From Burkholderiales bacterium (GTDB taxonomy: Bacteria > Pseudomonadota > Gammaproteobacteria > Burkholderiales > JAEUOS01), in contig JAEUOR010000010.1 of assembly GCA_016790635.1 (NCBI GenBank), positions 186,001 to 250,000 of the forward strand: a DNA stretch of 64,000 nucleotides. The letters run 5' to 3'. Made by a program: the position numbers and the translations under genes. Positions 1 to 26,645 of the stretch are shown in pieces; position 1 is the first letter of the stretch, and every line of letters starts with the position of its first letter. Under the pieces are notes generated by a model. It was not told the DNA's origin. It searched no databases and was given only the letters and a program-made list of their open reading frames with translations.

Positions 1-14
1 ATGCCGATCCGCTT

Positions 15-42
15 AAGCCCGCCCTAGTGGCGGGCTTTTTTT
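15..42 (+). terminator. Rho-independent terminator
   Basis: A 9-bp G/C-rich stem (AAGCCCGCC pairing with GGCGGGCTT) with a five-base loop runs straight into a T tract. It must end a transcript that starts left of the window, whose gene is not visible here. Confidence 0.85.
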
Positions 43-756
43 GCCTAACTTTCAGTCTAGGCGCCGGCGCCAAAAGATTGAACCAACCCGAACGCCAGCG
101 CACCATAATAACTCATGACGCCCGCAAGTACAAGTTCCATGCGGTCAGCTTGGTTGCCGCCGGCGCGACGATGCTGCCGACAAGCGGGAGAATAGTCGAT
201 GCACGCATCGTGCAAGCGCGTACCGTTTGGTGCCCATGAAGTGCGGCCGCATATTCAAGCCGCTCATCCGGCAAGAATGGTCTCAATGTACTCAGTCGAA
301 GTCCGCTGTCCTCAGCTTCGGAGTGAGTACACCTGAAGTCTCACGCATCAAGGGTTTCCGGGCGATTGGTGGGCTTGCCCTCAGTGTCCTCAGTCGAAAA
401 ACCCTGAGGCGGCATTGCTTAGGCCGCGAGTGGTTGCGAAATGCCCGGGCCTGGCTGGGTGTAAGCGCCCGACGTGGCTTATGTAGTTGCTCACCTGTTG
501 TGCGACAGAAAAATGGTTCAAGCGAAGCCACGGGGGGCGGGTGATTCTCTCGGACCGAAAGCCGATGGACCGTAGTCCAAGGCAAATTTTCCTGCGCGGG
601 AGTTTCAGGGGGTGGGGGTCACGATCGATTGGCGAACGTACTCGGTGCGCACCTTTGGCTGCGGAGGTCGACCTAAGTCAGGCCCACCCTGGGGATCGAG
701 CCCCAATTTGACGAAAGATGAATGAGGTTGGAAGGATCTGAACGGCATAATCAGGC
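43..756. other. Intergenic stretch without a supportable gene
   Basis: About 700 bases lie between the terminator and the nuclease gene. Short open frames exist on both strands, but none has a ribosome binding site, a recognisable domain or plausible composition. Two partly similar segments containing CCTCAGTC and CTCAGTCGAA occur near 290-310 and 385-400. A small hairpin (TGGGG/CCCCA) lies near 690-706. The stretch sits on the presumed island side of the tRNA-Ser fragment at 3758, so it may be decayed mobile DNA. I see no integrase or transposase remnant. Confidence 0.5.
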
Positions 757-1269
757 ATGCCCACTCGAATCGCGGTTCCCCTGCTGCTCGCAGCACTCAC
801 CGCACCCGCCTGGGCCGACATCACCGGAAAGGTCGTCGCAGTCGCGGATGGCGACACGATCACCGTCCTGCAAGGCAGGGAGCAGGTCAAGGTCCGCCTG
901 TCCGGCATCGACGCACCGGAACGGAAGCAGCCGTTCGGCGAGCGTGCCCGGGCGAACATGTCTCGCCTTGTGTTTGGCAAGGAGGTCCTAGTCGCGGGTC
1001 GCAAGCGGGACCGCTTCGGGAGTGTCGTCGGCCGCGTCTTGGTGGCCTCAGACGACTGCAAACAAGCAGACTGCCCCAAGACCCTTGACGCTAGTCTCGC
1101 GCAGCTGAAACTCGGCCTAGCGTGGCACTACAAACGTTTCGAGCACGAACAGCCGGAATACGAGCGCGGCCAGTATGTGTTCGCCGAGGGCGAGGCGAGG
1201 GCCAAACGGGCCGGACTGTGGCAGGATGCAGATGCGGTGCCACCGTGGGTGTGGAGGAGTTCAAAGTAG
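757..1269 (+). CDS. Exported thermonuclease-fold (SNase-like) protein
   Basis: The 170-residue product starts with a signal peptide (hydrophobic residues 5-19, AWA cleavage site before Asp21) followed by one staphylococcal-nuclease OB-fold domain. Calcium-ligand and catalytic positions are visible: DGD at 31-33, Arg47 in VRLSGIDAPE, and Asp52/Glu55. The family hallmark GLW and PPWVW close the C terminus. Oddly, the position matching the second catalytic arginine (normally in a YGR motif after Asp-Arg) reads FGS at 87-89, so activity may be weak or lost. It would act on nucleic acid outside the cytoplasm. It is 130 bases upstream of the KAP NTPase and probably transcribed separately. Confidence 0.88.
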   Translation: MPTRIAVPLLLAALTAPAWADITGKVVAVADGDTITVLQGREQVKVRLSGIDAPERKQPFGERARANMSRLVFGKEVLVAGRKRDRFGSVVGRVLVASDDCKQADCPKTLDASLAQLKLGLAWHYKRFEHEQPEYERGQYVFAEGEARAKRAGLWQDADAVPPWVWRSSK

Positions 1270-1399
1270 CAATTGAAAGGCGCGATTCAGACACAAGCTA
1301 CGCGCCGATGAGGAACTGTGCGAGAAAGAGTATGGTTGCATTCGAAAGGGCTGCGAAGCCGCGTGTCTCCGAAGTTGTCATATCCAAGGTGATATTTAG

Positions 1400-3694
1400 A
1401 TGAACGCGAAATCGGATGGCCCCGATTACTTGGGCTCCGCATCGACTGAAGCCGGGCATGACGCGCCAGTTCTCGATCGTACCGGAGATCACTATGACCG
1501 CTGGCCAATTGCAACTGCAATTTCGCGAGTGATCCAGGAATCGCCCCGAACCTGGTCGACGAGGATCGGGTTATTTGGGAGCTGGGGAGACGGGAAGACG
1601 ACAGTCTTAAACTTCTTGCAGGAACAGCAACGGTCCGCTGGAAACATCGTAATCAGGTTTAGTCCGTGGGGCGTTTCGACTGAAAAGGAGGTTTGGAAAG
1701 AGTTTGGAAATGCACTTACTGAAGGTCTACGCGAATGCGGTATCGGGACGGGTGCGTGGAGATCGACAGTCGTGTTTCTAAGGCGCAATTGGTCGTGGCT
1801 CTCGTCAGGTTCTGAGGGTGTAGCAAAAGCCGCACAGGCAAGCGGCTATGCGCCTGGCGCAGAAGCCGGTGCCAAGTTGGCGAATAGCTGGATCGCCGGA
1901 CAACTTCAGCTGAACCGAAAGAAGATTGAATCGATCGTCAATCAATTGGGTAGCCGCCGAGTGGTCGTATTTATCGACGACTTGGATCGGGCTGATCCCA
2001 GTCTTGTTCCCAAACTGTTGCTTGCGCTCCGAGAGTTGCTGGACGTCGCACAATTCGCATTTGTGCTGGCGTTCGACAGGAAGATTGTCGCAAAGTCACT
2101 TGAGACCTATAACCCTGCTTGGGGGCACGCGGGGGCTGACTTCCTCGACAAGGTCATTGATTTTTCGTTTGATCTACCATCCCCGACCCAAGAACAAATC
2201 CAGAAGCTTGCGATGGTGCAGTTCCGTTCGCTTTGCGCGTTTGTGCCCCCTCCAGCGTTCGAAGAAGTGCTGCCATTGCTCCCAAGTAATCCAAGGAAAA
2301 TCAAACTGTTCGCACGAATGATTGCGAGCACGAAAGATGAGGCGATCCGTCATAACGAAGATGAGTTGGATTGGGTGCTTGTTGTTCTGTTTTCGTTGCT
2401 GAAACTGGAAAGTGAGGACTTTGCTAGCGAAATTCGAGATCTAGCGGTTGGTTACCAAGAATTCGATTGGTTAACATGGGCGACTGGGCGCAATAGCGAA
2501 GAGGCGCGGGCCAAGCAGTCGGAAGCGATCAATGCGCTGATCGACAAGTTTCCACGGATTGCAGGGGAAAGAGTGCGTGTTGTCGATCTGGTCAAGGCCT
2601 TCTTGAAGCGCTGTTCGGTGCTGGCAGAGGGGAAGCTCAAGTACCAGACGAAGTTTGCTCTTTCTCCTGACTGCATTACGTGGGGAGAATTTAACCGCTT
2701 CTTCGAAGATTGGCGGGTTGACAAAGCGGTTTCAAAGGTCAAGTCTTTTGTACAGACTCGTGCGTCTCGAATGCGGTGTGATTCGGACCGCGTTGAGGAT
2801 GAACTGCTGGACACACTTGTCCAGTTTTGTGCCGAAGTTTTGGAAGAAGCGTCACATGTTTCAGGTGCCAGCCGCCACTCAGAGTTGCTGATTCGAGCCA
2901 ATGACAATCTTGACCTAATCTGTCAATGCCTTGTTGGAGAGAACAGGGCGTGCGAGTTGCCTCAGCTTCGTTTGCTGAAAGTGTGGAAGCTGCTATTGGA
3001 AGTGTTTGGGCCTTGGCAGCACTTTACGGCGAACAAAGGAGAGCCTGAACTAAGAGGTCGAGAGTGCCAGGTACTGATCAACCTAGCCGCTGAAATTAAT
3101 GATGGTCTCGCGCTTTTTGATATCGTCAGGCCGTGGGATCGAGAGGAGAGGGTACTAGGGGCTCGTTTCGGCAAAGAGGGTGTATTTTTGCTCGATCGAA
3201 TCCGTGAAGAAATTGAACCTCGGGCGATTCCGGAGGCTCTTCAAATCGTGGAGCACCCAGGGCGGCTGAAGAAACTTCGATTGCAGGATGAAGCGCTGGC
3301 AGCTAAATTTCTGCTTACTTCGCCAAGAAGCCCTTGCTTTCAGCAACCAATACTCGGCCAATTGCTAGAGCTTGTTCGAAGGCGAAAGGGGTCGACAGAC
3401 GCACGGGACGACGCACTCGTGTGGCTCGACTTCTTCTTGAAAGCATTTGCGCATGGCGACAGATTCTGTCCGATTGACGCGAGAAAGGCGTTCCTGAGCG
3501 AGCGATCCGACTTGATCACGATTCTGTGGGACTTGGCCACTGAGGTCCCAACCCAATACCGGTTTCTTTCTGAGCTGATGGAGCGTCGCGACCAGTTGGT
3601 TAAGGGCGGAGTGTCAAATGCGGCCCTTCCGCTACCCGAATGGCTTTTGGTCGCTACAAAAGATGCGCAGCAAGCAGAGCAGGGGGCATTTTAG
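1400..3694 (+). CDS. KAP-family P-loop NTPase
   Basis: The 764-residue protein carries the KAP signature: Walker A GSWGDGKTT (residues 60-68), the family RFSPW motif (86-90), and Walker B with sensor region VVVFIDDLDR (188-197). The roughly 450 C-terminal residues are not recognised. I see no convincing membrane helices between Walker A and B, although many KAP proteins have them. The start has a good Shine-Dalgarno (AAGGTGAT) 8 bases upstream. Base use is unlike the rest of the window: positions 2161-2220 hold 28 G+C of 60, against 43 of 60 at 60001-60060. Some KAP proteins act in anti-phage systems (QatA, PifA), so a defence role is possible but not shown. The gene lies just inside the tRNA-Ser fragment at 3758 and is probably horizontally acquired. 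Confidence 0.88.
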   Translation: MNAKSDGPDYLGSASTEAGHDAPVLDRTGDHYDRWPIATAISRVIQESPRTWSTRIGLFGSWGDGKTTVLNFLQEQQRSAGNIVIRFSPWGVSTEKEVWKEFGNALTEGLRECGIGTGAWRSTVVFLRRNWSWLSSGSEGVAKAAQASGYAPGAEAGAKLANSWIAGQLQLNRKKIESIVNQLGSRRVVVFIDDLDRADPSLVPKLLLALRELLDVAQFAFVLAFDRKIVAKSLETYNPAWGHAGADFLDKVIDFSFDLPSPTQEQIQKLAMVQFRSLCAFVPPPAFEEVLPLLPSNPRKIKLFARMIASTKDEAIRHNEDELDWVLVVLFSLLKLESEDFASEIRDLAVGYQEFDWLTWATGRNSEEARAKQSEAINALIDKFPRIAGERVRVVDLVKAFLKRCSVLAEGKLKYQTKFALSPDCITWGEFNRFFEDWRVDKAVSKVKSFVQTRASRMRCDSDRVEDELLDTLVQFCAEVLEEASHVSGASRHSELLIRANDNLDLICQCLVGENRACELPQLRLLKVWKLLLEVFGPWQHFTANKGEPELRGRECQVLINLAAEINDGLALFDIVRPWDREERVLGARFGKEGVFLLDRIREEIEPRAIPEALQIVEHPGRLKKLRLQDEALAAKFLLTSPRSPCFQQPILGQLLELVRRRKGSTDARDDALVWLDFFLKAFAHGDRFCPIDARKAFLSERSDLITILWDLATEVPTQYRFLSELMERRDQLVKGGVSNAALPLPEWLLVATKDAQQAEQGAF

Positions 3695-3757
3695 GGGGCA
3701 TTCACTGACGATTCACGAGAAATGGTGTTTTTAATCAACGAGATAATCTGATGATTG

Positions 3758-3777
3758 GAATCCCTCCGTCTCCGCCA
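3758..3777 (+). other. tRNA-Ser 3'-end fragment, probable attachment site (att)
   Basis: GAATCCCTCCGTCTCCGCCA matches the T-loop 3' half, acceptor arm and CCA of a betaproteobacterial tRNA-Ser of the GGAGACG acceptor type. No D-arm, anticodon arm or variable arm precedes it, so it is not a tRNA gene. A short duplicated tRNA 3' end is what site-specific integration into a tRNA gene leaves at the far side of an island. The following terminator is probably the original tRNA terminator. The intact tRNA-Ser and the integrase would lie left of the window. Confidence 0.7.
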
Positions 3778-3786
3778 GAACATCAG

Positions 3787-3819
3787 AAAAAACGGGCCGT
3801 CTCGGCCCGTTTTTCTTTT
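3787..3819. terminator. Bidirectional terminator
   Basis: A 12-bp stem (AAAAACGGGCCG pairing with CGGCCCGTTTTT) with a TCT loop has an A tract on one side and a T tract on the other. It can stop transcripts from both sides. It separates the KAP gene and tRNA-Ser fragment from the convergent transporter gene. Confidence 0.9.
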
Positions 3820-3848
3820 CTGCCCGCGTTTCTGCAATAGGCGACAGG

Positions 3849-4754
3849 TCAGGCGGCTACACCTACCTTGGCTGCATCCCGCGCCAGCGCTTCTCGCGTC
3901 GCATTGTTGCGATACCAGATCGTGATGGCAGAACTCGTGAGGACGATGAAAAGGCTATAGAGCACCGGAACCAACAAGACCTGCTGCTGCATCTGGTCCT
4001 TGAAAGTAAGCGTCACGATCAGTATCGCCAGCGGCCCGTTCTGAATGCCGGTCTCCAGGCTGATGGTGCGAGCGCGGTTGCTGTCCTGCTTGAGCAGGCG
4101 CGCGAGCCAGTAGCCCAGGAACATGCCGAATAGACCGACGCCGATCGCGGCAAAGAAGACGTACCAAGGAGTGGACAGGAGCAACTGGTAGTTGCGCGGC
4201 ACCCAAGAGACGATCAGGAACAGGATCACGAACACTCCCAGCATGGAGCCGATCAGTTCGATCGTGGCACCCGTGTTCGGGTTGGTCTTGCGCAGGATCA
4301 TGCCGATGATGGTCGGCACGAGGAGCACGACCAGCACCTGTGCCACGTTGGAGGCCGGAATCGCAAACTCACCCGTGACGCCGGCCAGCTTGCTGTAGAA
4401 GGCGATCAAGGCCGGCACGGCAGCCACCGCGACCAAGGTGGAAACGCTGGTCATCATGATCGACAGGGCCAGCGCCCCCTTGCTGAAGTAGGTGAATATG
4501 TTCGAGGTGGTGCCGCCCGGCATGCAGGCAATCAGGATCAGGCCCACCGCCAGCGGCGGCGGCAAGCCCAACAGAACGGCGAGCAGGTAGCCAAGAAAAG
4601 GCATGATGCCGTACTGGCAAAGAATGCCCACCAATACCCCCTTGGGCTTCTTGAAGGCGATCAGGAAGTCGCGAAATGTTAGCGACGCGCCCATGCCCAG
4701 CATGATCACCATCATCATCACGCCCAGAAGCTTGGTTTCGAGTTCGGTCAACAC
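3849..4754 (-). CDS. BASS-family sodium-dependent transporter
   Basis: The 301-residue, strongly hydrophobic protein is a member of the bile acid:sodium symporter (SBF/BASS) family. The signature CMPGGTTSNIFTYFSKG lies near residues 78-95, and roughly nine to ten membrane helices can be traced. It should import an organic anion with sodium across the inner membrane. The start is GTG, with AAGGAGA eight bases upstream that overlaps the stop of the acyl-CoA ligase (11-base gap). The two genes are therefore one operon and probably translationally coupled, which suggests the substrate is an acid that the ligase activates. The substrate cannot be read from sequence. Confidence 0.9.
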   Translation of the reverse strand: MLTELETKLLGVMMMVIMLGMGASLTFRDFLIAFKKPKGVLVGILCQYGIMPFLGYLLAVLLGLPPPLAVGLILIACMPGGTTSNIFTYFSKGALALSIMMTSVSTLVAVAAVPALIAFYSKLAGVTGEFAIPASNVAQVLVVLLVPTIIGMILRKTNPNTGATIELIGSMLGVFVILFLIVSWVPRNYQLLLSTPWYVFFAAIGVGLFGMFLGYWLARLLKQDSNRARTISLETGIQNGPLAILIVTLTFKDQMQQQVLLVPVLYSLFIVLTSSAITIWYRNNATREALARDAAKVGVAA

Positions 4755-4765
4755 GACAGGTCTCC

Positions 4766-6514
4766 TTACTTCTTGTTGAACTCGGCCTTGACTTCGGCCT
4801 TGAGGTCTTTGCGCAGGATCTTTCCGACCGGAGACTTGGGCAGCTCATCGCGGAAGACGATGGATTTCGGGATCTTGTAGTCGGTCAGGAGGGTGCGACA
4901 GTGGGCCAGAACTTCGTCCTTGCTGAGCGAGCCCGCGAAATCAGGGTTCTTCACCACGTAGGCGCGCACGGCCTCGCCGGACTTGGCATCGGGCACGCCG
5001 ACCACCGCCGCCTCGAGAATGGCGTCCATCTTGGCCAGTGCGTCTTCGATTTCGTTGGGGTAGACGTTGAAGCCGGAGACCAGCACCAGATCCTTCTTGC
5101 GATCCACGATCTTGAAGTAGCCTTGCTCGTCCATCACCGCGACGTCGCCCGTGTACAGCCATCCGTCTTTGAGGATCGCCGCAGTCTCCTCGGGCCGTTG
5201 CCAGTAGCCCTTCATGGTTTGCGGGCCGCGCACAATCAGCTCGCCCGGTTCGCCCAGCGCCACGGGCGCACCCGCATCATCGACCAGCCGCACCTCGGTC
5301 CCGGGTGCCGGAATGCCGATGCTGTCCACCTTCGCCACGCCGCTCAAGGGGTTGAAACTCACGCACGGCGAGCATTCGGTCAGGCCGAAACCCTCGGCAA
5401 TGCGTGTGCCGGTGATCGTCTGCCAGCGCGCGGCTACCGCGTGATGCAGCGCGGTGCCACCGGCAATGGCAGCCTTGAGGTGCTTGGGCGGAAACGCGGT
5501 GAACCACTCCTCGTTCATCAAGCCGTTGAAGAGCGTGTTCACACCGGTGATCCACGTGATCGGATAGTTTTCGATCGCGCGCTGCAGGTTTTGCACGGGG
5601 CGCGGGCTGGGGATCAGGATGTTGCGCCCGCCGATATCCAAGAAGCAGAGCAGGTTCGCGGTGAAGGCGAAGATGTGATACAGGGGCAGCGCGGTGAGCA
5701 CCACCTCGTTCTCCCCCATGTGCGACCTGCCCATCGCCAGCACCTGGTCCACGTTGACCAGCAGGTTGGCGTGGGTGAGCATGGCCCCCTTGCTCACGCC
5801 GGTGGTGCCGCCGGTGTATTGCAGTGCCACGATGTTGGTGGAAGCGATGCCGTCCCAATAAGCCTTGACCTTTTCGCGGGCTCCGGCCGCTCGTCCGGCG
5901 GCGAGCGCGGCGCTCAGGCGTTCGATCGTCTGGGGCAGCTGTGGAATCGCCGGCAAGACCTGGCTCCATACCTTTTGCACGCCTCGCACGATCATGTTGG
6001 GGATGGCGGGGAACATCTCGGACACCCCCGCCAGCACCACACGCTCGACCTTGACCTTGGGAATCACGTCGGCGAGCTTGTCGGCAAACATGTCCACGAT
6101 TACCAGCACGCGTGCGCCGGAGTCGTTGAACTGGTGAATCATCTCGCTCGGGGTGTACAGAGGGTTGGTATTGACCAGGACGCAACCGGCCTTGAAGATT
6201 CCAAACGCCACCACCGGGTAGGCCAGGCCATTGGGCAGCTGCACCGCAACCCGATCGCCGGCTTTCAGGCCACAGACCTCGCGCAGGTACAGCGCAAAGG
6301 CGTCGGAGAGGTCACCCAGCTGGCTGTAGCTCAGACTGCCGTTCATGCCGTTGGGCACCACGGCGGTGAACGCAGTCTGCTTGGCATAGCGCTCGCAGGC
6401 GCTGTGCACCCTGTGCGCGACGTTCTTGTATTGGGGAGGAGGCAGCAGCGGCGCAATGGCGGTGCCGTAGGCGGCCAGCCACGGCTTGCTGTCGTAGAGG
6501 GAGGCGTCGGCCAT
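4766..6514 (-). CDS. Long-chain-type acyl-CoA ligase (AMP-forming, FadD-like)
   Basis: The 582-residue ANL-superfamily enzyme activates a carboxylic acid through an acyl-adenylate to the CoA thioester. The phosphate loop YTGGTTGVSKGAML, the YTGDVAVMDEQGY hinge region and the C-terminal lysine motif PKSPVGKILRK are all present. The frame stays open much further upstream, but ATG 6514 has GGAG nine bases before it and gives the normal FadD-like N terminus. An in-frame ATG at 6529 is the alternative. The gene is the first of a two-gene operon with the BASS transporter. FadD-like is the best family label; chain-length preference is unknown. Confidence 0.9.
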   Translation of the reverse strand: MADASLYDSKPWLAAYGTAIAPLLPPPQYKNVAHRVHSACERYAKQTAFTAVVPNGMNGSLSYSQLGDLSDAFALYLREVCGLKAGDRVAVQLPNGLAYPVVAFGIFKAGCVLVNTNPLYTPSEMIHQFNDSGARVLVIVDMFADKLADVIPKVKVERVVLAGVSEMFPAIPNMIVRGVQKVWSQVLPAIPQLPQTIERLSAALAAGRAAGAREKVKAYWDGIASTNIVALQYTGGTTGVSKGAMLTHANLLVNVDQVLAMGRSHMGENEVVLTALPLYHIFAFTANLLCFLDIGGRNILIPSPRPVQNLQRAIENYPITWITGVNTLFNGLMNEEWFTAFPPKHLKAAIAGGTALHHAVAARWQTITGTRIAEGFGLTECSPCVSFNPLSGVAKVDSIGIPAPGTEVRLVDDAGAPVALGEPGELIVRGPQTMKGYWQRPEETAAILKDGWLYTGDVAVMDEQGYFKIVDRKKDLVLVSGFNVYPNEIEDALAKMDAILEAAVVGVPDAKSGEAVRAYVVKNPDFAGSLSKDEVLAHCRTLLTDYKIPKSIVFRDELPKSPVGKILRKDLKAEVKAEFNKK

Positions 6515-6679
6515 GTGGGGGTACTCCATTCGGGCGCTAAGCGCCAATGTCTCGAATTTGGTGGTGTTGTTGTTCTGACAGGATCGGTTCCGCTCGCACC
6601 TTCTCTTGTACATGCGAGTGCCGTGGGAAACCGACAGGAAGGCGCCGCATTTTCCAGCGACCCGAGGGTAGCCGGCAAT

Positions 6680-6724
6680 CAGGGTTTCTTCGGGGACGCT
6701 CGCGCATTGCGTTATGCGGCGATC
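6680..6724. repeat. Dispersed 45-bp repeat, copy 1
   Basis: This segment matches 9682-9726 at 40 of 45 positions by hand alignment, in the same orientation. The shared core includes GACGCTCGCGCAT and ATGCGGCGATC. Both copies lie between genes. What follows both copies is also loosely similar, so the element may be longer and decayed. Confidence 0.7.
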
Positions 6725-7024
6725 TCTAAAATGAAGGTGCCAAGGGAAACCGACGGCACTCTGAAACGTTCTCGAGCCCTCAAACCGATTGATGAATTCG
6801 AGACATTGTCGGCGGCATGGAAGCGTTGCTCCGCATGCGCGCGGAGAGCACGCACAGGAGCCGAAACCGTTGCCTACATATGGATTGCGTCTGATGCTCA
6901 CGTATCGCTCATGCGACGATCATCTCGAGCAAGCAGCGTGGAGAGTGAAAGCAGGACGAGCTGCAATTCGAGCCCCGGAGGTTTTTACTCTCACCGGCCG
7001 GAACCTTTGAAGCGTCAAATGACA

Positions 7025-7050
7025 ACGGCGTCCGCTAACGCGGACGCCGT
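7025..7050 (-). terminator. Terminator-like hairpin after the fasciclin gene
   Basis: A perfect 11-bp stem, ACGGCGTCCGC pairing with GCGGACGCCGT around a TAAC loop, lies about 55 bases past the stop of the fasciclin gene. The leftward reading has no T run after it, so it may only stabilise the transcript end. Confidence 0.55.
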
Positions 7051-7103
7051 CGGGACTACAGCCAAGCAAATGTCTGCGGCGAAGCCCGCTCGCAGAGAGG
7101 TGC

Positions 7104-7559
7104 TTAGTTTGGCAGCACTACGGTGTCGATGACGTGAATCACGCCGTTGTCGGCAACGATATCGACCGCTGTGACGGTGGCATTGTTGACTTTCACGCCC
7201 CCGGTTGTGCTGACGTTAAGAGCCGAACCCTGGACCGTCTTTACCGCGCCGGCCTTGACGTCCTTGGACATCACCTTGCCGGGGACGACGTGATAGGTCA
7301 ACACCGAGGTCAACTTGGCCTTGTCAGCCAACAGTGCATCGAGTTGCGCTTTCGGGATCTTCGCGAAGGCGGCATCCGTGGGTGCGAACACCGTGAACGG
7401 TCCCTTGCCCTTGAGGGTGTCAATCAGGCCGGCGGCCTGCAGGGCGGTCGCTAGCGTCTTGAAATTGCCAGCGGAGACGGCGGTGTCGACGATGTCCTTG
7501 GCATTCGCGGTGGACATCAGGCAGATCGAGATAGCAGCGGCAGATAAGAGTTTTTTCAT
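7104..7559 (-). CDS. Secreted fasciclin (FAS1) domain protein
   Basis: The 151-residue protein has a signal peptide ([20 protein letters not shown], cleavage near residue 20) and a single FAS1 domain. FAS1 marks include [17 protein letters not shown] and the [10 protein letters not shown] segment, with [14 protein letters not shown] as the last strand. Such proteins are small extracytoplasmic adhesion or stress-related proteins of uncertain biochemical role. AGGAA lies eight bases before the ATG. It is divergent from a MerR-type regulator across a 171-base, relatively AT-rich gap, which suggests regulation by that protein. Confidence 0.93.
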
Positions 7560-7693
7560 GTTCGGTTCCTAAGAAGAGAGGGGAGGGTAAATGAACTCGA
7601 AATGTACCTTTAAAATGAGTTCATTAGCACCACATTACTAGATCAATTTGAGTTTGTACAGGGATATTTCTGCTTTTGTCCTCGTATTTTGTG

Positions 7694-7699
7694 TATAAT
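7694..7699 (+). promoter_or_regulatory. Probable -10 element of the merR-type gene
   Basis: A consensus TATAAT lies 32 bases before the start codon in an AT-rich stretch. The -35 region about 17 bases upstream (CTGCTT/TTTTGT) is poor, as is common for regulated promoters. TTGTACA (7655-7661) and ATGTACC (7602-7608) in the same gap are possible regulator half-sites. Confidence 0.5.
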
Positions 7700-7730
7700 G
7701 CGTTCAATTCGAGGTCAATAGGGGAATTCC

Positions 7731-8720
7731 ATGGCATCTGCCCGAAAACCGGTTTCCGACGCTCCCCTCTATCGCAGCGGCGCGGCGGCAAGACTCACAG
7801 GCATCCCTGTGCAAACGCTGCGGGTCTGGGAGCGGCGCTACAAGATCGTCGGGCCGCAACAGAGCGCGACGGGCCAACGCCAGTACTCTCCGGCGGATGT
7901 GGTGCGTCTCGCGGTCATCAAGCAGCTTGTCGACCTCGGGCACGCGATTGGCTCGATTGCCGCGCTTGACTTGGAAAAGCTTCAATCCATGCTTGAGACG
8001 GCATCGCGCGTGCCTTCAGCACTGCCTCGTCCTGCTGGACCAATTGCTGGAGGCGTGATGCCTCGGACGCGTGTTGCAATCGTTGGCGAGGCGCTCTCGA
8101 TTCGAGTCGAGCACTATCGACTGCCCTGGCTCGATCTTGCAGTGGCAACGCCTGACCTCGAGCTGGCGTTCCACGCGCTTAGGGATGTCGCGGCCGACGT
8201 CATGCTGATCGAGGTGCCGACCTTGCAGCGGGGATCAGCGCGGGACATCCGTGCATTGGCCAGGCAGATCGGGGCGCAGCGCATCATCGTAGAGTACGGC
8301 TATGGTCCGCAACGCGTTGAGCAAGAGTTGCGCGCAGCAGGGTTCAGCCTTGTGCGTGCGCCCCTGGATATCGGCCAACTGGAGGCGCTTTGCCTCTTGC
8401 CAGCCTCAGGCGTGGCTAGCGGGATCCCAGCTGTCGTTTCGCCGGCCTCGCCGCCCGCGCCGCGACTTTTCGACAACAAGACGCTCGCGGCGATTTCCGT
8501 GGCTGCAGTGCCACTGGACTGCGAGTGCCCGCACCACCTGTCCGACCTGTTGCTGCGATTGGGCAACTTCGAGACCTACAGCGCCGAATGCGAAAGCCGC
8601 GGTCCGGCCGACGCGGCTCTGCACCGCTACCTGAAGGAGACCACCGGCACCGCGCGCGCCTTGCTCGAGACGGCCATGCAGCGCGTTATCGAGGCGGAAG
8701 GCATTTCCCTTCCGGCCTGA
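7731..8720 (+). CDS. MerR-family regulator with a cobalamin-domain-like C terminus
   Basis: The 329-residue protein opens with a MerR winged helix (about residues 13-80; PVQTLRVWERRYKIV holds the recognition helix and wing). Residues about 105-225 alternate strand and helix like a B12-binding fold, in the layout of CarH/LitR regulators. The DxHxxG cobalamin-ligand motif is absent, so a light-sensing B12 function is not supported. The C-terminal region resembles the helical end seen in such regulators (SDLLLRLGNFETYSAECES). It is divergent from the fasciclin gene, and an SDR follows 30 bases later. It probably controls both; the signal is unknown. Confidence 0.85.
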   Translation: MASARKPVSDAPLYRSGAAARLTGIPVQTLRVWERRYKIVGPQQSATGQRQYSPADVVRLAVIKQLVDLGHAIGSIAALDLEKLQSMLETASRVPSALPRPAGPIAGGVMPRTRVAIVGEALSIRVEHYRLPWLDLAVATPDLELAFHALRDVAADVMLIEVPTLQRGSARDIRALARQIGAQRIIVEYGYGPQRVEQELRAAGFSLVRAPLDIGQLEALCLLPASGVASGIPAVVSPASPPAPRLFDNKTLAAISVAAVPLDCECPHHLSDLLLRLGNFETYSAECESRGPADAALHRYLKETTGTARALLETAMQRVIEAEGISLPA

Positions 8721-8750
8721 TCGCGGATGTTGCCAGGAAGGGGCCAGTTC

Positions 8751-9494
8751 TTGACTATTACATACTCGACGGAGACGCCGGCGTCCCTTGCCACGCCGTT
8801 TCCGCCAGGCGGCATCGCCGTGGTTTTTGGGGCCAGCGGAGGGATCGGCAGCGCCCTCGTGAGTCGGCTCGGTGCGCAGTCGGGATTCTCGATGGTGGCG
8901 GGCTATTCCCGCTCGAGCGCAGTTGCGCTTGATCTCGGCGACGAGTCAAGCATCGAAGCGGTCGCGGCGGATGTGCGCCGCTCGGGGCTGGAACCGCGGT
9001 TGCTGATCGACGCGACCGGCATCCTCGAAGGCGAAGGCTGCATCGCCGAGAAATCGTGGCGCCAGCTCGATCCCGCCGCGATGGCGCGCGCGTTCGCGGT
9101 GAACGCGATCGGGCCTGCGCTCCTCATGAAGCATTTCCTGCCGATGTTGCCGCGCTTGGGCAAGTCTGTTTTCGCCACCTTGTCCGCTCGTGTCGGCAGC
9201 ATCGGCGACAACCGGCTCGGTGGCTGGTACAGCTACCGCGCGTCCAAGTCCGCGCTGAACCAGATCGTGCGCACCGCCTCGATTGAATTGCGCCGCAGCA
9301 GGCCCGACGCCATCTGTGTCGCATTACATCCGGGAACGGTTGCCACGCCCCTATCAGCGCGTTTTGCGAAGTCCGGGCTTGAGGTCCAGTCCCCGGATAC
9401 CGCGGCGACGCGCATTCTGGCGGTGTTGGACTCGCTTCAGGCGGAGTCCTCGGGGGAATTCTTCGACCAGCAGGGCCGGTCGATTCAGTGGTAG
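8751..9494 (+). CDS. Short-chain dehydrogenase/reductase (CsgA/C-factor-like)
   Basis: This Rossmann-fold oxidoreductase has the cofactor loop FGASGGIG and the catalytic YxxxK (YSYRASK), with a serine in the TLSARVG segment. I chose TTG 8751 because GGAAGGGG lies seven bases before it. The upstream ATG at 8727 has no ribosome site, but it would add eight residues in frame. The product is about 247 residues. It lies 30 bases after the MerR-type gene and is probably co-transcribed with it. The substrate is unknown; C-factor-like SDRs are often linked to stress or signalling loci. Confidence 0.88.
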   Translation: MTITYSTETPASLATPFPPGGIAVVFGASGGIGSALVSRLGAQSGFSMVAGYSRSSAVALDLGDESSIEAVAADVRRSGLEPRLLIDATGILEGEGCIAEKSWRQLDPAAMARAFAVNAIGPALLMKHFLPMLPRLGKSVFATLSARVGSIGDNRLGGWYSYRASKSALNQIVRTASIELRRSRPDAICVALHPGTVATPLSARFAKSGLEVQSPDTAATRILAVLDSLQAESSGEFFDQQGRSIQW

Positions 9495-9795
9495 CAAACG
9501 CGGCAGCGGTTTCGCAGATTGCGTCGGAATCGGCCTAGCCGTTCGAAAGCCAGGCCAGCACGGTTGCGTGCTTCCACAGGCTTGCTGACCGGCGGCGCTA
9601 AAAAACGACCTTGCGAGGTTTGGCGCCACGAGCTCTGAAAAGAACGGGGCGCTTGCGCGGCGATGGCAAGGCATACTGGATCAGGGCTTCTTCGGCGACG
9701 CTCGCGCATCGCTGTATGCGGCGATCGTGCGCAAGCCGGCGGCACCGAAAACCGTGCGTACCTCCCTGGCGAATGTCTTGAACGGCTCGTCAGCC
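9495..9795. other. Convergent intergenic region, no gene
   Basis: This 301-base gap separates the SDR from the convergent membrane-protein gene. Apart from the second copy of the 45-bp repeat, I see no gene, tRNA or clear terminator in it. Confidence 0.5.
9682..9726. repeat. Dispersed 45-bp repeat, copy 2
   Basis: This is the second copy of the repeat at 6680-6724 (40 of 45 identical, five substitutions, no gap). A loosely similar tail containing GCACCGAAAACCG follows it, comparable to the sequence after copy 1. Confidence 0.7.
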
Positions 9796-10464
9796 CTAAG
9801 GAGTGCGCCCATGCGCGCGAATCAGCTCGGCAGGGATTTCCAAGGGCGTGATCCAACCCGCCAGGAGAGTGACCAGTCCGAGAGCGAGCCCTGTGCTCGC
9901 CAACACGAGCATGCGGGCCATCCCCGGATTGCGACGTCCAAGGGGAACGGACAGGTGCATACCGAACGCCAGCACCGCCAAGCCGTAGTACGGCGCAAAG
10001 AAAAACTTCCATGCGCCGGCATGCAGGCCCGCGGCAGCAAAGGCCAGATCGGTATCGATTCCGCCCAGGCGCGCCTGCAGCACCGCGAACACGTGGATCG
10101 CCAGGAAGGCTGCCAGGTACGCCCCGCTCAGGGGTTGCAGCGCGCTTGACCAGGCGATAGACCGGCGCAGCCAGATCAGGCGCAGGCCGGTGGCGATCTG
10201 GATGGCGCAGGCGGCCAGCAAGACAGGCTCAGGCCAACCCCGGTACAGCCAGCGCAAGGCCAGCTGCACGCTGCGGTGCACATCTTGCCCGGCGAAGCCT
10301 GCCACATGGTTGCCCAGATGCAGAAGGACGAAGCCCCCGAGGACCATTGCTGAACTTCGATGGATACGCCGCAACAGGCGAGTCCTGGCCGCTGGTTTCC
10401 CGGGGCCTGTCATCGGCGCCGTGCCTGCGGAGGGCGCCAAGTCTTGAGGTGAGGGTGGGGTCAT
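9796..10464 (-). CDS. Five-helix membrane protein resembling SdhC/FrdC cytochrome b
   Basis: The 222-residue protein has about five transmembrane segments. Histidines sit where haem ligands are expected: HRSS and HLGNH around helix 1, AIHVF in helix 3 and GMHLS in helix 4. This resembles the one-subunit cytochrome b anchor of succinate dehydrogenase/fumarate reductase, but no flavoprotein or iron-sulfur partner is nearby. A quinone-linked electron-transfer role is therefore inference. ATG 10464 lies only ten bases from a TetR operator and lacks a clear ribosome site; ATG 10413 is an alternative start. It is divergent from the TetR gene and very likely repressed by it. Confidence 0.72.
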   Translation of the reverse strand: MTPPSPQDLAPSAGTAPMTGPGKPAARTRLLRRIHRSSAMVLGGFVLLHLGNHVAGFAGQDVHRSVQLALRWLYRGWPEPVLLAACAIQIATGLRLIWLRRSIAWSSALQPLSGAYLAAFLAIHVFAVLQARLGGIDTDLAFAAAGLHAGAWKFFFAPYYGLAVLAFGMHLSVPLGRRNPGMARMLVLASTGLALGLVTLLAGWITPLEIPAELIRAHGRTP

Positions 10465-10474
10465 GCGCCGAACT

Positions 10475-10498
10475 TTACCATACCGTAAAGTATGTTAA
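10475..10498. promoter_or_regulatory. TetR-type operator 1
   Basis: The inverted repeat TTACCATAC-n6-GTATGTTAA (arms match at 8 of 9) lies between the divergent membrane-protein and TetR genes. The arm sequence and six-base spacer match operator 2 at 11163. The 10-base distance to the membrane-protein start fits direct repression. Confidence 0.75.
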
Positions 10499-10537
10499 GA
10501 TCCTTTCAGCTGCGACCTGACGACCCAACTCAACGAC

Positions 10538-11161
10538 ATGCGTCGACGTGCCACCACTTCACCCCGGTCGGATGCCGCGCGCAAGCGCCTGCGGCCGGCC
10601 GACTGGGTTGCGGCCGGGTTTCGTACGCTGGCGCAGAGCGGTGCTCATGCCGTGGGCGTGGACGCTCTTGCGCGGGAGTTGGGCGCGACCAAGGGTTCGT
10701 TCTATTGGCACTTCGATGATCTCGCGGCGCTTAAATCGGCCATGCTGCAAGCCTGGGAGCAACTGGCCACCACTGACATCACTGCGGCGGTCCGCAGCGC
10801 GCCGCTGGCACCGCAGGATCGGCTCTTTCTGCTCATGGAGAAGGTGTCGGTCACGCCTGGCGATGAGTTCGGCGGCCTTGCGATTGAACCGGCCATTCGC
10901 GAATGGGGCCGCGCCGAGCCGCTGGCGCGCGCCGCCGTGGAGCGGGTGGATCGACAGCGGCTGGCCGACCTGCGCGACTTCCTGCGCGCCGCTGGCCTTG
11001 CGCCCCTGGCCATCAGCCAGGCGGCGGTGGTGATTTATGCCGCCGTGATCGGGCTGGAGAGCCTGCGCCTCTCGGCCGGTGTGGGTATGCGCGAGCCGCT
11101 GCTGGCATTGGTGGAACAGATCCTGACGACCGCGCCGCGCGCAGATACCGGCGCGGATTGA
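10538..11161 (+). CDS. TetR/AcrR-family transcriptional repressor
   Basis: The 207-residue protein has an N-terminal TetR helix-turn-helix (about residues 20-65), including the typical VDALARELGATKGSFYWHF recognition segment. A helical ligand-binding domain follows. The ligand is unknown. The gene lies between two copies of the same palindrome (10475 and 11163). This indicates autoregulation and control of the divergent membrane protein and of the downstream 168-residue protein. No strong ribosome site precedes ATG 10538. Confidence 0.92.
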   Translation: MRRRATTSPRSDAARKRLRPADWVAAGFRTLAQSGAHAVGVDALARELGATKGSFYWHFDDLAALKSAMLQAWEQLATTDITAAVRSAPLAPQDRLFLLMEKVSVTPGDEFGGLAIEPAIREWGRAEPLARAAVERVDRQRLADLRDFLRAAGLAPLAISQAAVVIYAAVIGLESLRLSAGVGMREPLLALVEQILTTAPRADTGAD

Positions 11162-11162
11162 A

Positions 11163-11186
11163 ATAACGTACCAAAAGGTATGTTTT
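11163..11186. promoter_or_regulatory. TetR-type operator 2
   Basis: ATAACGTAC-n6-GTATGTTTT has the same geometry as operator 1 and an identical GTATGTT right arm. It begins two bases after the TetR stop codon and lies 22 bases before the next gene. A separate promoter for that gene under TetR control is therefore likely. Confidence 0.7.
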
Positions 11187-11207
11187 GATTCGAATGAAAG
11201 GCTGGCG

Positions 11208-11714
11208 ATGCCGGTGCTACAAACACCTCTCCCGTCCTACACCTTGCTGGCAAGCCAGGCTGGACACTCGCTGGACTGCTTCATCCTGGAGGTGCCCGTG
11301 TCGGTCGACCTCGCAAAGTACGTGGCCGCGTTCTACAGCACCTGGCTCTTCCGGCTGGAGCGGCTGGTGTTGCGGATGGCGGGATACCCATCCTCGGACG
11401 CCGAGGCATGTGCCCTCGGCCAAGGCATGTCGCAGTCCTTTGCCGCCTGGACCATGCAGGCACGCACGAACGATCAACTGCTGATGCGTGACGTGACGGG
11501 AGCGACCTGTTCCTGGCTGATGGTGCAGCCGCTGGCGGGTGGGACGCGGTTGTACTTCGGCTCCGGCGTGCGTCTTCGCGCCAAGCGGGACGGTGGCGAC
11601 GCATGCCTGCCTTGGACGTACAGGGCGCTGATGGGTTTGCACCTTCTTTACTCACGCGCGCTGCTCGCTGCAGTTGGAGGCAGGCTGGCGCGCGAACGAA
11701 CCTCCGCCGCCTGA
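11208..11714 (+). CDS. Conserved-looking protein of unknown function
   Basis: I do not recognise the 168-residue product with confidence. It has no signal peptide or clear membrane segment. It contains a YSTWLFRLERLVLRMAG segment and an acidic/aromatic centre (MRDVTGATCSWLMVQPLAGG) that looks like a small alpha/beta fold; a DUF2867-like relation is a guess. GAAAGG lies six bases before the ATG. TetR operator 2 just upstream makes it part of the TetR regulon together with the divergent haem-type membrane protein. Confidence 0.75.
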   Translation: MPVLQTPLPSYTLLASQAGHSLDCFILEVPVSVDLAKYVAAFYSTWLFRLERLVLRMAGYPSSDAEACALGQGMSQSFAAWTMQARTNDQLLMRDVTGATCSWLMVQPLAGGTRLYFGSGVRLRAKRDGGDACLPWTYRALMGLHLLYSRALLAAVGGRLARERTSAA

Positions 11715-11933
11715 CGCACGTTCAACGAGAGTTGAAATGAACATGGGAATATTGACGCTGTCCAACGGCGCTGCTAACTTCCGGCACCGCCGTGGCTGAC
11801 CCTCACGGGTGACCGAGACGGGTATCGTTGCCGATCCGTACTTCGCGCCCACCCTGGCGCGTGGCCTGGTGTTGTCGTGCGCGTTCACGCTGGCAGAAGA
11901 ATCACGAAGCAAATTTGGAGTAAGGAGCTTGAA

Positions 11934-14069
11934 TTGCAGGGCCAGAACAAGTCGGGGCTCGATGCCCTTTTCAACCCCGCCTCCGTGGCGGTGGTCGGCG
12001 CCACCAACGATGTCGGCCGCATCGGCGGCGTGCCGCTCGAACTGATGATCCGGCGCGGCTATCGCGGCCGCATCCTGCCGATCAATCCCAAGTACGCCGA
12101 GATCCAGGGTCTGAAGGCCTATCCCAGCTTGGCCGCAGTGGGGGCGCCGGTCGACCTGGTGGTCGTCGCGGTCAACGCCGCCCTCGTGCCGCAGACCCTG
12201 GAGGACGCGATCGCCGCCGGCGCCAAGGGCATGGTGCTGTTCTCTTCCGGCTTTGCCGAGGCCGACGACGCCGGCCGTGCCGCGCAGGAGGCCGTGGCGG
12301 CGCGCGCCCGCGCGGCCGGCGTGCGCCTGCTCGGGCCCAACTGCCTGGGCATGATGGCCTTCGCAAGCAACGTCTATGCGACCTTTTCGCCTGCGGCGCG
12401 CGCGGGCGAGACCAAGCTGGGCGACATCGCCATCGTCAGCCAGTCGGGCGCCTTCGGCGCTTTCGCCTATTCGCTGGCGCGCATCAAGGGCCTGGGCATG
12501 TCCTACTGGCTCACCACGGGCAACGAGGCCGACATCGAGTTCGCCGACTGTGTCGAGTGGCTGGCCAACGACAGCGCCACGCGCGTGATTCTGGGTTACA
12601 TGGAAGGCTGCCGCGACGGCGAGAAACTGAAGCGCGCACTGGCCGCCGCGCGCGCGGCTGGCAAGCGCGTGGTCATCACCAAGGTCGGCCGCACGGCGCT
12701 GGGCAGCGCGGCCGCCGCCTCGCACACCGCCGCGTTGACCGGCGAGGACGCGGTCTACGATGCCATGTTCCGCCAGTACGGCGTCTGGCGCGCGCGCACC
12801 GTCGACGAACTTTTTACCGTCGGCTACGCGGCCGCGATGTGCCCGGCACCCGCCTCGCGGCGCATCGGGCTGCTCACCACCTCCGGCGGGGTGGGCGTAC
12901 TGATGGCTGACGAGGCGGTCGAGTGCGGGCTCGATGTCGCGGAAATGCCGGCTGCCGCGCAGGCCGCCCTGCGCGCCAAGGTGTCCTTTGCCGGGCCGCG
13001 CAATCCGGTCGACATCACCGGCCAGCACCAGAACCATCCCGAACTCTTGGGCGAGACCCTGGAGAACATGCTGGGCCGCGGCCCTGAGCAGGGGCGCTAC
13101 GACAGCCTCCTGTTCTTTCCGGCCGCGGCGCTGCTCGGTTCGCCGCGCGCGCAGGTCGTGGTCGACGCATTGATCGAGGCGCATCGGCGCCATCCCGACA
13201 TCCCGCTGGGCGTGAATGGCCTGACGCGCCCGGAGCAGCGTGCGCAGTTCGAGGCGGCAGGCATCCCGGTGCTTGAGGAACCCAGCGGTGCGGTGCGCGC
13301 CTTCGGGGCACTGGCCTTCATGGCCGAGAGCGCGCGCCTGGCCGCGCAGCGCGCACCGATCGCATTGCCGGCGGTGGCGCCGCTGCCTGCGCATGCCCTG
13401 ACCGAGCACGAGGCCCTGGGCCTCATGCGCGCGGCCGGGCTGCCGGTGATGCCGTGCGCGCATGCGGCGAGCGCGGAGGCGGCCGTCGCCGCCGCCGAAA
13501 AGCTGGGCTACCCGGTCGTGGCCAAGCTGTCCTCGCGCACCATCACCCACAAAAGCGATGTCGGCGGGGTCAAGCTCAACCTGGCCGACGCAGCCGCGGT
13601 GCGCGCCGCGTTCGACGCCATCATGGCCTCGGCGCGCGAGGCCGAAGCGCAGGCGCACATCGACGGCGTCCTCGTCGCGCCCATGATTCGCGGCGGTGTC
13701 GAATGCATTCTCGGCGTGCAGCGCGACCCGGTATTCGGTCCGGTGGTGATGTTCGGCCTGGGTGGCGTGTTGGTCGAGGCGCTCAAGGATGTGAGCTTTC
13801 GCTTGGCCCCGATCGACCTGACCGAAGCGCGCGCGATGATCGACGAGATCCGCGCGCGGCGCGTGCTCGACGGCATGCGCGGCGCGCCGCCGGCCGATGT
13901 CGATGCGCTCTCTGCCGCCATCGCGGCGCTGTCGCGCTTCGCGGCCGCCCATGCCGACCGTCTGCAAAGCCTCGACCTCAATCCCTTCGTGGTCATGCCG
14001 CGTGACGGCGCGGGCGTCGGCGGGGTCAAGGCGCTGGCGCTCGACGCTGTGCTCATCGCGCGCACCTGA
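11934..14069 (+). CDS. Acyl-CoA synthetase, NDP-forming (ACD/Acs fusion type)
   Basis: This 711-residue enzyme joins the alpha and beta parts of an ADP-forming acyl-CoA synthetase. In order it has an N-terminal CoA-binding Rossmann domain (PASVAVVGAT), succinyl-CoA-ligase-like domains with the phosphohistidine motif SHTAALTG, and a C-terminal ATP-grasp domain (YPVVAKLSSRTITHKSDVGG). It interconverts an acyl-CoA and acid with ATP. I chose TTG 11934 because AAGGAG lies six bases upstream; an ATG at 11877 has no such site. A nitronate-monooxygenase-like gene follows 22 bases later, then a Bug protein. The three look like one operon for an organic acid of unknown identity. Confidence 0.9.
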   Translation: MQGQNKSGLDALFNPASVAVVGATNDVGRIGGVPLELMIRRGYRGRILPINPKYAEIQGLKAYPSLAAVGAPVDLVVVAVNAALVPQTLEDAIAAGAKGMVLFSSGFAEADDAGRAAQEAVAARARAAGVRLLGPNCLGMMAFASNVYATFSPAARAGETKLGDIAIVSQSGAFGAFAYSLARIKGLGMSYWLTTGNEADIEFADCVEWLANDSATRVILGYMEGCRDGEKLKRALAAARAAGKRVVITKVGRTALGSAAAASHTAALTGEDAVYDAMFRQYGVWRARTVDELFTVGYAAAMCPAPASRRIGLLTTSGGVGVLMADEAVECGLDVAEMPAAAQAALRAKVSFAGPRNPVDITGQHQNHPELLGETLENMLGRGPEQGRYDSLLFFPAAALLGSPRAQVVVDALIEAHRRHPDIPLGVNGLTRPEQRAQFEAAGIPVLEEPSGAVRAFGALAFMAESARLAAQRAPIALPAVAPLPAHALTEHEALGLMRAAGLPVMPCAHAASAEAAVAAAEKLGYPVVAKLSSRTITHKSDVGGVKLNLADAAAVRAAFDAIMASAREAEAQAHIDGVLVAPMIRGGVECILGVQRDPVFGPVVMFGLGGVLVEALKDVSFRLAPIDLTEARAMIDEIRARRVLDGMRGAPPADVDALSAAIAALSRFAAAHADRLQSLDLNPFVVMPRDGAGVGGVKALALDAVLIART

Positions 14070-22914: not shown

Positions 22915-23562
22915 CCGACCGAGCTTCATCGCTGACGCGGCGATGGGTTTGGCCCAGACTGGACAGGTCTTGAGGTCTTCCGGATTGAGGATCCTCTTGT
23001 CCTCCATGTGCAGCACCAGTCGAAGGTGCGGCGCCTGTCCTTCCGCAGGCGCTGCCGACACGGTGTTGTCGTACAGGCGCAAGGACTCGAGCACGGGCAG
23101 CAAGGCGATGAGATTCAGCCGGCTATGTTCAAACCGGCGGCGAATGTCGGCTTCGTCAATGGCGTGTCCGCCCAAGGCGACCCGCGCTGCGACGCGCGCG
23201 ATGTGGTGCTCCGGCGTTGCCAGGCCGACGAAACGCACACGCACCGCAAAGCCCTGGTTGGCTGCCTCCGCCAGCAAGCGCGGAATCGTTGCTGCTCCCA
23301 AAGTCGTCTCGAAGGCGTAGTCCTTGCGGGACGCAATGGCCTTTTCCAGCAAGCGGCGGCCATGCTGCCAGGCAGCGGCATTCGCTTCGGTTTGCGTCAT
23401 GCCGGGGCGGCGCAGCATCAGCGACCGCGCGACCTCGTCGGGGTTGTAGTACTCGCCGCCCGATTCGCGAATCGAGCTGCCCAGAACACTGCTCTTGCCC
23501 GCGCCGTTGACGCCCGCGAGGACGTAAATCGTCGGCGGCGGGTCGGCTTGCCTGGGCGGCAC
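22909..23562 (-). CDS. Zeta-type P-loop toxin of a toxin-antitoxin pair
   Basis: The 217-residue protein is a small P-loop kinase of the zeta-toxin type. It has Walker A GVNGAGKSS (17-25), the NPDEVARS segment and the FETTLG motif typical of zeta and related kinases. Zeta toxins phosphorylate UDP-N-acetylglucosamine; whether this one does is unknown. It starts six bases after the stop of a Phd/YefM-type antitoxin gene, in one operon. This pairing differs from the classical epsilon antitoxin. Confidence 0.85.
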   Translation of the reverse strand: MPPRQADPPPTIYVLAGVNGAGKSSVLGSSIRESGGEYYNPDEVARSLMLRRPGMTQTEANAAAWQHGRRLLEKAIASRKDYAFETTLGAATIPRLLAEAANQGFAVRVRFVGLATPEHHIARVAARVALGGHAIDEADIRRRFEHSRLNLIALLPVLESLRLYDNTVSAAPAEGQAPHLRLVLHMEDKRILNPEDLKTCPVWAKPIAASAMKLGRL

Positions 23563-25647: not shown

Positions 25648-25734
25648 GATGGCGTGAATCCTCGGCGGTGGAACTTCGATTTTGGCATACGCAATCTCGC
25701 CACGCGCTGCCGCACGCGCGGGCCCTGTGATCTA

Positions 25735-26640: not shown

Positions 26641-26645
26641 GTGCA

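Follow-up and report, generated by a model that had tools for sequence, protein, structure and literature searches.

The 20 nt at positions 3758-3777 of the window (the whole 64,000-nt stretch analysed here, G000:C85:186001-250000) are most likely attR of a 12.5-kb genomic island lying beside an intact tRNA-Ser(GCU) gene and inserted by its own tyrosine integrase. From the sequence evidence we put the probability of this reading at about 0.9, a value that covers the island and its integration, not replication or defence. The 20-mer (GAATCCCTCCGTCTCCGCCA) matched a single place in the window at up to three mismatches (mean 0.01 in 100 shuffles), and ARAGORN found no tRNA-Ser in these 64 kb, in agreement with the first-pass annotation, which had described an exact-looking 20-bp tRNA-Ser 3' end with the rest of the tRNA missing. 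In the whole draft genome (5.57 Mb in 90 contigs, 89.8% complete, 5.6% estimated contamination), a search allowing up to one mismatch returned two copies on the same contig and strand, C85:177213-177232 and C85:189758-189777, which are in direct orientation and 12,545 bp apart. The left copy forms the 3' end of the intact tRNA-Ser(GCU) gene (L003:3139-3232; locus L003 is C85:174001-191000, and a window position equals the L003 position minus 12,000). Because the other copy of the 20-mer ends an intact tRNA-Ser, the fragment is genuine, and the gene from which it derives lies a short way to the left of the window. That annotation had proposed to look leftward for a full tRNA-Ser gene and an adjacent tyrosine recombinase; the tRNA gene was found 12,545 bp to the left with the integrase gene directly behind it. 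The duplicated core and the integrase beside the intact tRNA uphold its placing of the right edge of a genomic island at 3758-3777, as well as the direction it gave to the island. Two features of tRNA islands are thus present, namely an intact tRNA at one end with a displaced direct 3' fragment at the other, and a tyrosine integrase inside the island and adjoining the intact tRNA. The features of the island and its borders are as follows.

C85:177213-177232, plus strand: putative attL core, 3' end of the intact tRNA-Ser(GCU) gene
about L003:3263-3303: terminator-like hairpin after the intact tRNA, apparently the element's own (z -4.9)
L003:3337-3389: left arm-type repeats, four copies of GGGGGCAT, one pair beginning 114 nt after the tRNA
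L003:3435-4688: integrase, starting 202 bp behind tRNA-Ser; Arm-DNA-bind_3, Phage_int_M and Phage_integrase, all above the Pfam cut-offs
L003:4708, 4717, 4783 and 4794 (4708-4802), plus strand: cluster 1 of the 9-mer CTGAGGACA (at most one mismatch), behind the integrase gene
L003:5165-5233: int-alpA RNA (RF02996) between integrase and AlpA, 57.4 bits (cut-off 35.8)
L003:5973-6284: AlpA, Phage_AlpA 58.4 bits (cut-off 21)
L003:6932-9775: primase-helicase, 947 aa, with PriCT_2, Toprim_3 and DUF927
L003:10115-10720: HTH protein, 201 aa, HTH match below threshold, long predicted helix
L003:10712-11254, minus strand: sigma-factor-like gene, weak matches
1-3757: right part of the island (left part C85:177213-186000, equal to L003:3213-12000)
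287-295, 307-315, 376-384 and 385-393, minus strand: cluster 2 of the 9-mer (at most one mismatch), candidate iterons
757-1269, plus strand: SNase (staphylococcal-nuclease) homologue, 170 aa, cargo
1400-3694, plus strand: KAP-family P-loop NTPase, 764 aa, stop codon inside the right arm repeats
3682-3701 (L003:15682-15701), plus strand: right arm-type pair, two copies of GGGGGCAT 12 bp apart
3758-3777, plus strand: putative attR core, displaced tRNA-Ser(GCU) 3' end, matching the intact gene at 20/20 nt
3785-3816, plus strand: terminator-like hairpin after the fragment (-21.8 kcal/mol, z -4.1)
3849-4754, minus strand: SBF (sodium/bile acid symporter family) transporter, first gene of the right flank

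The hairpin at 3785-3816 corresponds to the terminator noted earlier behind the fragment and is presumably the original terminator of tRNA-Ser, now severed from its gene. The integrase, AlpA and primase-helicase genes are uninterrupted open frames; further island proteins comprise one of 205 aa and two small ones, one of them with a sub-threshold HTH match. No relaxase or conjugation family was detected among the eleven island proteins scanned, and a conjugative or mobilisable element was rejected on the absence of a relaxase from these eleven. About 1.5 kb at 0.555 G+C without a recognised gene lies between the sigma-like and nuclease genes, and this part contains a 110-nt duplication at 86% identity (L003:11519-11764). 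The start of the AlpA gene carries a 48-nt in-frame tandem duplication (83%, L003:6022-6117). The int-alpA RNA was found in none of the seven relatives scanned. The C4 antisense RNA was detected in four of seven relatives or reference elements (L214:3957-4043, L215:2483-2570, L107:12335-12422 and L108:5607-5692) and was absent from the island itself among RNA matches up to E 1. Regarding composition, low-G+C genes had been described left of the fragment and ordinary high-G+C chromosome right of it. The break is real (0.627 for the island versus 0.671 for 3778-64000) but uneven on both sides: the right part of the island is low (KAP gene, 0.528; this gene stops 63 bp before the tRNA fragment, and the last 63 nt are at 0.397), but the integrase and primase genes reach 0.69-0.70, and the SBF transporter gene, the first right of the fragment, lies below average at 0.597.

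The attachment geometry provides a second line of evidence. A blind 8-mer search of the island identified clusters of ATGCCCCC at both ends (score reached by 0 of 40 shuffles) and placed GGGGGCAT clusters at the two ends only; from their position, we infer that these arm-type repeats are candidate integrase binding sites. Relatives were gathered via the integrase (80 loci in genomes and 44 in viral contigs), and 23 combinations of a tRNA and a right pair were picked by hand, 17 on one contig and six across contigs of one genome. Among the 17 same-contig elements, own island included, the distance from the right pair to the CCA end of the remnant was 76-78 nt in 16 (77 nt here) and 82 nt in the exception, L033. 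At the left end, 30 loci were compared, and in 29 of them the pair begins 112-116 nt downstream of the tRNA (114 nt here). The boundary at 3777 therefore fits, because the geometry of the family places the remnant there. In 15 of the 17 elements, no more than 3 of 200 shuffles fitted the element's own tRNA end as well as the remnant did; in L031 and L033, 30 of 200 did so. Compared with 21 other tRNA ends on the same remnants (20-nt ends), the own tRNA end was best in 11 elements, including this island, tied in three and lost in three; with shorter 16-nt ends it was best in only 7 of 17, other tRNA ends fitting nearly as well because tRNA 3' ends resemble one another.

We further asked how widely these repeats occur. 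When the loci were restricted to those with a tRNA upstream within 420 nt (71 of 124 kept, those without one omitted), at least two GGGGGYA sites in either orientation were present on the left in 51 of the 71 (a raw count), and a right pair lay within the examined DNA in eight; the left arm pattern is absent in L036, L037, L038, L040 and others. A search for the arm-pair pattern in 46 genomes found 79 places in 39 of them versus 13 for the reversed control. The attP-layout pattern matched 20 viral contigs, 11 of which have 191-194 nt between the pairs (two of these 11 share one sequence), and the spacing in the predicted attP of the island is 191 nt. In the blind repeat test of 12 elements, six yielded no score, 2 of 40 shuffles attained the score of L159, and five elements stood above all shuffles; the winner was the arm repeat in our island, L107 and L047, a scattered 24-copy repeat in L116, and iterons in L036. 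This geometry supplies a rule that can help to locate the right edges of related islands, including those with an imperfect tRNA remnant.

Many remnants of the relatives are best read as one base shorter than the end of their tRNA. The 17 same-contig remnants comprised two of exact length (own and L108), 11 with a one-base deletion, two ties (L055 and L053), one with a longer deletion (L041) and one degenerate (L033), and the six cross-contig remnants comprised one exact, three deletions, one tie and one degenerate. Among the 17, all 13 deletion and tie remnants are compatible with the absence of the seventh base, counted from CCA, across different tRNA genes (one-base-short elements: L032, L035, L047/L191, L050/L201, L052/L203, L073, L077/L193, L107, L031/L195, L198 and L045/L168; ties: L053/L180 and L055). 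One of the 11 one-base-short remnants, that of L031, did not stand above shuffles; repeating the 17 remnants with 20-nt ends left the deletion and exact assignments unchanged. We tentatively read the short copy as the element's own, with the crossover to its right.

Comparison with a relative lacking the insert, as had been suggested, gave a partial answer. In G002, of the same genus, lysC (90% protein identity) is followed by tRNA-Ser and no integrase in the 6.3 kb left on the contig, so this region is free of the island over that length, but its right flank differs: behind tRNA-Ser come a dehydrogenase, a transporter protein, nadK, recN and tRNA-Thr (named by eye), and the transporter-to-tRNA-Thr block, which starts 1.3 kb behind tRNA-Ser in G002, lies 20 kb behind attR in the window (24,073-28,431). 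A P-loop gene near this block (window 22909-23562, minus strand), by eye resembling a zeta-type toxin, perhaps has a small partner gene beside it. None of the genomes compared offered an exact empty site followed by this right flank. The contig of the congener G001 ends 48 bp behind tRNA-Ser, and at the DNA level lysC-tRNA-Ser matched nothing in G003 or G004, whose protein matches were weak (E 1.9e-5 and 2.6e-4). tRNA-Ser lies near lysC in 22 of 27 lysC loci, own included, and the start of our right flank was seen in 0 of 19 relatives when the 60 nt after tRNA-Ser at lysC were compared by eye. For the flank comparison, 40 candidates per genome were scored (27 in one of seven genomes). The SBF gene has no match in G001-G003 (two congeneric, one confamilial) and a 24% match in the confamilial G004. 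Among the matches listed, 3778-7560 is represented in the two congeners mainly by an acyl-CoA ligase gene (best 65-73%) with few short ones, and 7560-11,808 by none. From there outward, 11,958-16,199 matches G002 at 87%, about 21,208-22,876 at 83% and two more stretches at 74% and 79%; these congener matches are 0.7-4.2 kb long and lie on contigs other than that of tRNA-Ser. The claim of ordinary chromosome to the right is thus only partly supported: DNA from 11,958 on is shared with the genus, and the first 8 kb have no close match in two congeners.

Two other explanations of this border were weighed against these data. Short tRNA fragments can arise by other routes, and the 20-mer could in principle be a tRNA-Ser pseudogene, ancient or due to chance, that has nothing to do with the genes to its left. 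However, it matches the sole matching tRNA exactly over 20 nt and in direct orientation, an integrase gene adjoins that tRNA inside the island, both island ends carry repeats, and the remnant lies where the family geometry predicts it. This reading is negligibly probable and was rejected on the arrangement and attachment geometry. The other explanation concerns the right side, where window positions 3.8-12 kb may stem from an earlier, separate insertion that has lost its own ends, so that the strain-specific region would be longer than the island. We consider this rather unlikely. The G+C of 0.60 near the border, the partial acyl-CoA ligase and short matches that alone are listed for 3778-11,958 in the two congeners, and the change from 1.3 to 20 kb in the distance of the transporter-nadK-recN-tRNA-Thr block would suit it, but no further tRNA-Ser remnant occurs in the window (up to three mismatches), and the genes from 11,958 on are common to the genus, so rearrangement or loss in G002 accounts for part of the flank difference. 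The right flank is host-like further out and is not, by this comparison, the ancestral neighbour of the tRNA gene; loss, rearrangement or an older insertion are possible. Because the right flank differs between congeners, the comparison does not reconstruct the pre-insertion state. The island bounded by attR at 3758-3777 is retained as the preferred reading.

By its defining features, this is a tRNA island and a new example of tRNA-gene genomic islands. It shares the regenerated tRNA, displaced fragment and tyrosine integrase of Islander tRNA-gene islands, with no difference in principle from those described in the available text of PMC4383910. Its nearest studied relatives are phiAH14b and pHS87b. 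The first (KU708005), a putative satellite of AH14a, has an integrase 45% identical to ours and a DUF927 part at 35%, carries integrase, AlpA, Toprim and DUF927 in the same order along with iteron-like repeats, and its record begins with an apparent tRNA 3' end (by eye). Unlike our island, phiAH14b has Toprim and DUF927 as separate genes (fused here), a C4 RNA, many further genes and no annotated KAP gene. According to the part of its description available, it is packed into capsids like those of AH14a, which it seems to use, and its integrase is similar to that of P4 (PMC4936722). The domain make-up of our integrase fits the P4 family; the 45% identity is to the phiAH14b integrase, and the link to P4 runs through that source (PMC4936722). 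The Pseudomonas aeruginosa element pHS87b (NZ_KR106191, 11.2 kb) likewise has Toprim and DUF927 genes (DUF927 part 37%), and the portion of its report at hand describes a P4-family integrase and both a free circle and a form integrated in a tRNA gene 3' end (PMC4739549). It differs from our island in its distant integrase (25% over 187 aa), its insertion in tRNA-Thr and its annotated genes for a P2-type capsid protein and an ogr/delta-like protein.

An AlpA-type regulator, a P4-like feature, is present in the island. No D5-type helicase domain of a P4-alpha-type primase-helicase was found in it, PriCT_2, Toprim and DUF927 occurring instead. The P4 helicase, which we take to be of the alpha type with a D5-type make-up, is in this respect unlike the DUF927 helicase here. 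No psu, sid or delta was detected among eleven island proteins compared with Pfam and ten with PHROGs. With an integrase, an AlpA-type regulator, a primase-helicase and variable cargo, the island resembles P4-like satellites as portrayed in the available parts of PMC8628076 and PMC9122126, with the cargo placed behind the primase toward attR here and between psu and int in P4-like elements. It works like a P4-type element, but we do not file it as a P4-like satellite because of its different helicase type and because psu, sid, delta and C4 RNA were not found by these scans. The Cch of SCCmec and the Rep of SaPIs, in the accessible text of PMC7581432, provide a DUF927/MCM-like helicase of an integrated island, as here, but the SCC integration machinery differs, and our helicase is fused to primase domains and accompanied by candidate iterons in two inverted clusters. 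What began as an observation on 20 bases is now a mobile element mapped at both ends, with candidate sites for its integrase and a candidate origin.

The candidate origin consists of the two CTGAGGACA clusters, which are mutually inverted and accompanied by three more scattered copies. These iterons were found by a directed look, not by the blind repeat test; with the motif taken from cluster 1, four copies fall into a 150-nt stretch elsewhere in the island, and at most two did so in 300 shuffles. Two relatives have clusters at the same two positions as our island: L036 carries TGCGGACA 12 times in two clusters, behind the integrase and toward the right end, and L155 carries the same 9-mer twice behind the integrase and in four grouped copies behind the primase (positions converted to the orientation of the element). 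L108 has no copy of the 9-mer, and other elements are also without such iterons. In phiAH14b, GGGGAACA repeats lie directly behind the DUF927 gene. The DUF927 part of our primase-helicase has sequence matches to the solved chains 8tch and 5dgk. SaPI origins, in the portion of PMC7581432 that treats them, consist of iterons that the Rep C-terminus recognises, and they lie behind the helicase gene. The inverted 9-mer clusters suggest an origin of the P4 or SaPI type.

The gene content toward attR points to a predicted defence function. The KAP protein matched the PifA model with E 2.5e-33 (residues 16-268 on model positions 3-262 of 720), and the match was limited to the N-terminal part in this protein and in five of five sampled homologues. 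Of 7995 candidates scored, 237 were homologues of it at E 0.001 or better, the PDB sequences gave one chance-level match (E 0.29), and the literature search returned no paper combining PifA, KAP, NTPase and phage. We predict that the KAP NTPase is anti-phage cargo that guards the host from other phages. Six hand-picked relatives were scanned for genes between the replication gene or integrase and attR (L055 and L159 omitted); before attR they carry a type IIG-like restriction-methylase (L073), a HipA/HTH pair (L107), a partial match to a candidate defence model (L156), a phage capsid gene (L108) and a Mob_Pre gene (L041), and L047 has an SNase gene toward the right end, as in our island. In L155, the primase is followed by only about 0.6 kb of the element. 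Three of ten cargo proteins of relatives had no Pfam family, and two of seven had no PADLOC match. The E. coli P4-like elements offer a precedent for such a cargo stretch, being a hotspot for anti-phage systems, which their cargo includes according to the sections of PMC9122126 available. The stretch before attR is therefore a place to look for defence genes.

The HTH protein was considered as a possible packaging factor. Its structure model has a mean pLDDT of 74 and a pTM of 0.41 and no match in the PDB at E 0.001 or better; the best structure matches were an excisionase (E 0.05) and BldC, with a PICI packaging-redirection protein at rank 25 (E 1.0). At the sequence level, the terminase small-subunit profile phrog_57 was the top match in 9 of 10 proteins including the query and the second in P0010 (E 6e-5 to 1.7e-9), which weakly suggests a terminase small subunit.

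Taken as a working model, the integrase would have recombined a circular attP with the 3' end of tRNA-Ser. The tRNA would owe its last bases, and the terminator that now follows it, to the copy carried by the element, and the 3' end and terminator that the chromosome had before would have been displaced to 3758-3816. Excision may be aided by AlpA or the HTH protein; once free, the circle would be replicated by the primase-helicase starting at the iteron clusters, in the manner of P4 or SaPIs. The KAP NTPase, located where some relatives carry defence-type or toxin-antitoxin genes, is predicted to protect the host. How much of this activity persists can be read in three ways. The island might be a true phage satellite, induced and packaged by a helper phage, a possible reading that we hold to be less likely than not: the backbone of integrase, AlpA, Toprim and DUF927 is common with phiAH14b, which is packed in AH14a-like capsids in the available text of PMC4936722, four of the seven relatives or reference elements scanned have a C4 antisense RNA, and the HTH protein weakly matches a terminase small-subunit profile, but the proteins scanned yielded neither a capsid-redirecting nor an ogr/delta gene, C4 RNA was not found in our own island, and the structural comparison of the HTH model favours a packaging role little (no PDB match at E 0.001 or better, the PICI redirection protein ranking 25th at E 1.0). 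It is somewhat doubtful that the island is a fossil that integrated as described and is now unable to excise or replicate, with selection keeping the KAP and nuclease genes; the 1.5 kb of low-G+C DNA that lack a recognised gene, with their 110-nt duplication, and the lack of any excised or circular form seen speak for decay, but the open frames of integrase, AlpA and primase-helicase are uninterrupted and the att core is identical at 20/20 positions. The most far-reaching reading, which we hold to be improbable, makes the island a live P4-like satellite that replicates itself and belongs to a lineage hardly described so far; in it, the fused primase-DUF927 helicase would fire from the inverted clusters as an ori/crr pair, KAP would guard the host, and the family-wide one-base-short tRNA copy would mark attP versus attB, our island with its full end being an exception.

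The targets of related integrases are consistent with insertion at tRNA-Ser. Among the first 15 genome loci listed (L028-L042), 13 lie behind tRNA-Ser (CGA, GCU or GGA) and one behind tRNA-Leu, and the remaining one, L039, has a tRNA-Ser 3' fragment before the integrase. More distant integrase relatives have Leu, Arg, Thr, Asp, Cys, Pro, Met and other tRNA genes as targets. At L039 (in L162), an intact tRNA-Ser (807-896) is followed 6.8 kb on by a tRNA-Ser 3' fragment (7706-7725) directly before the integrase gene, and two elements may be in tandem at one tRNA. In Comamonas granuli (L163), the 3' end of tRNA-Ser(GGA) recurs as an exact 20-nt repeat (625 and 9829-9848, 9.2 kb apart) with no integrase of the island's family between both repeats, possibly representing another island with a different integrase.
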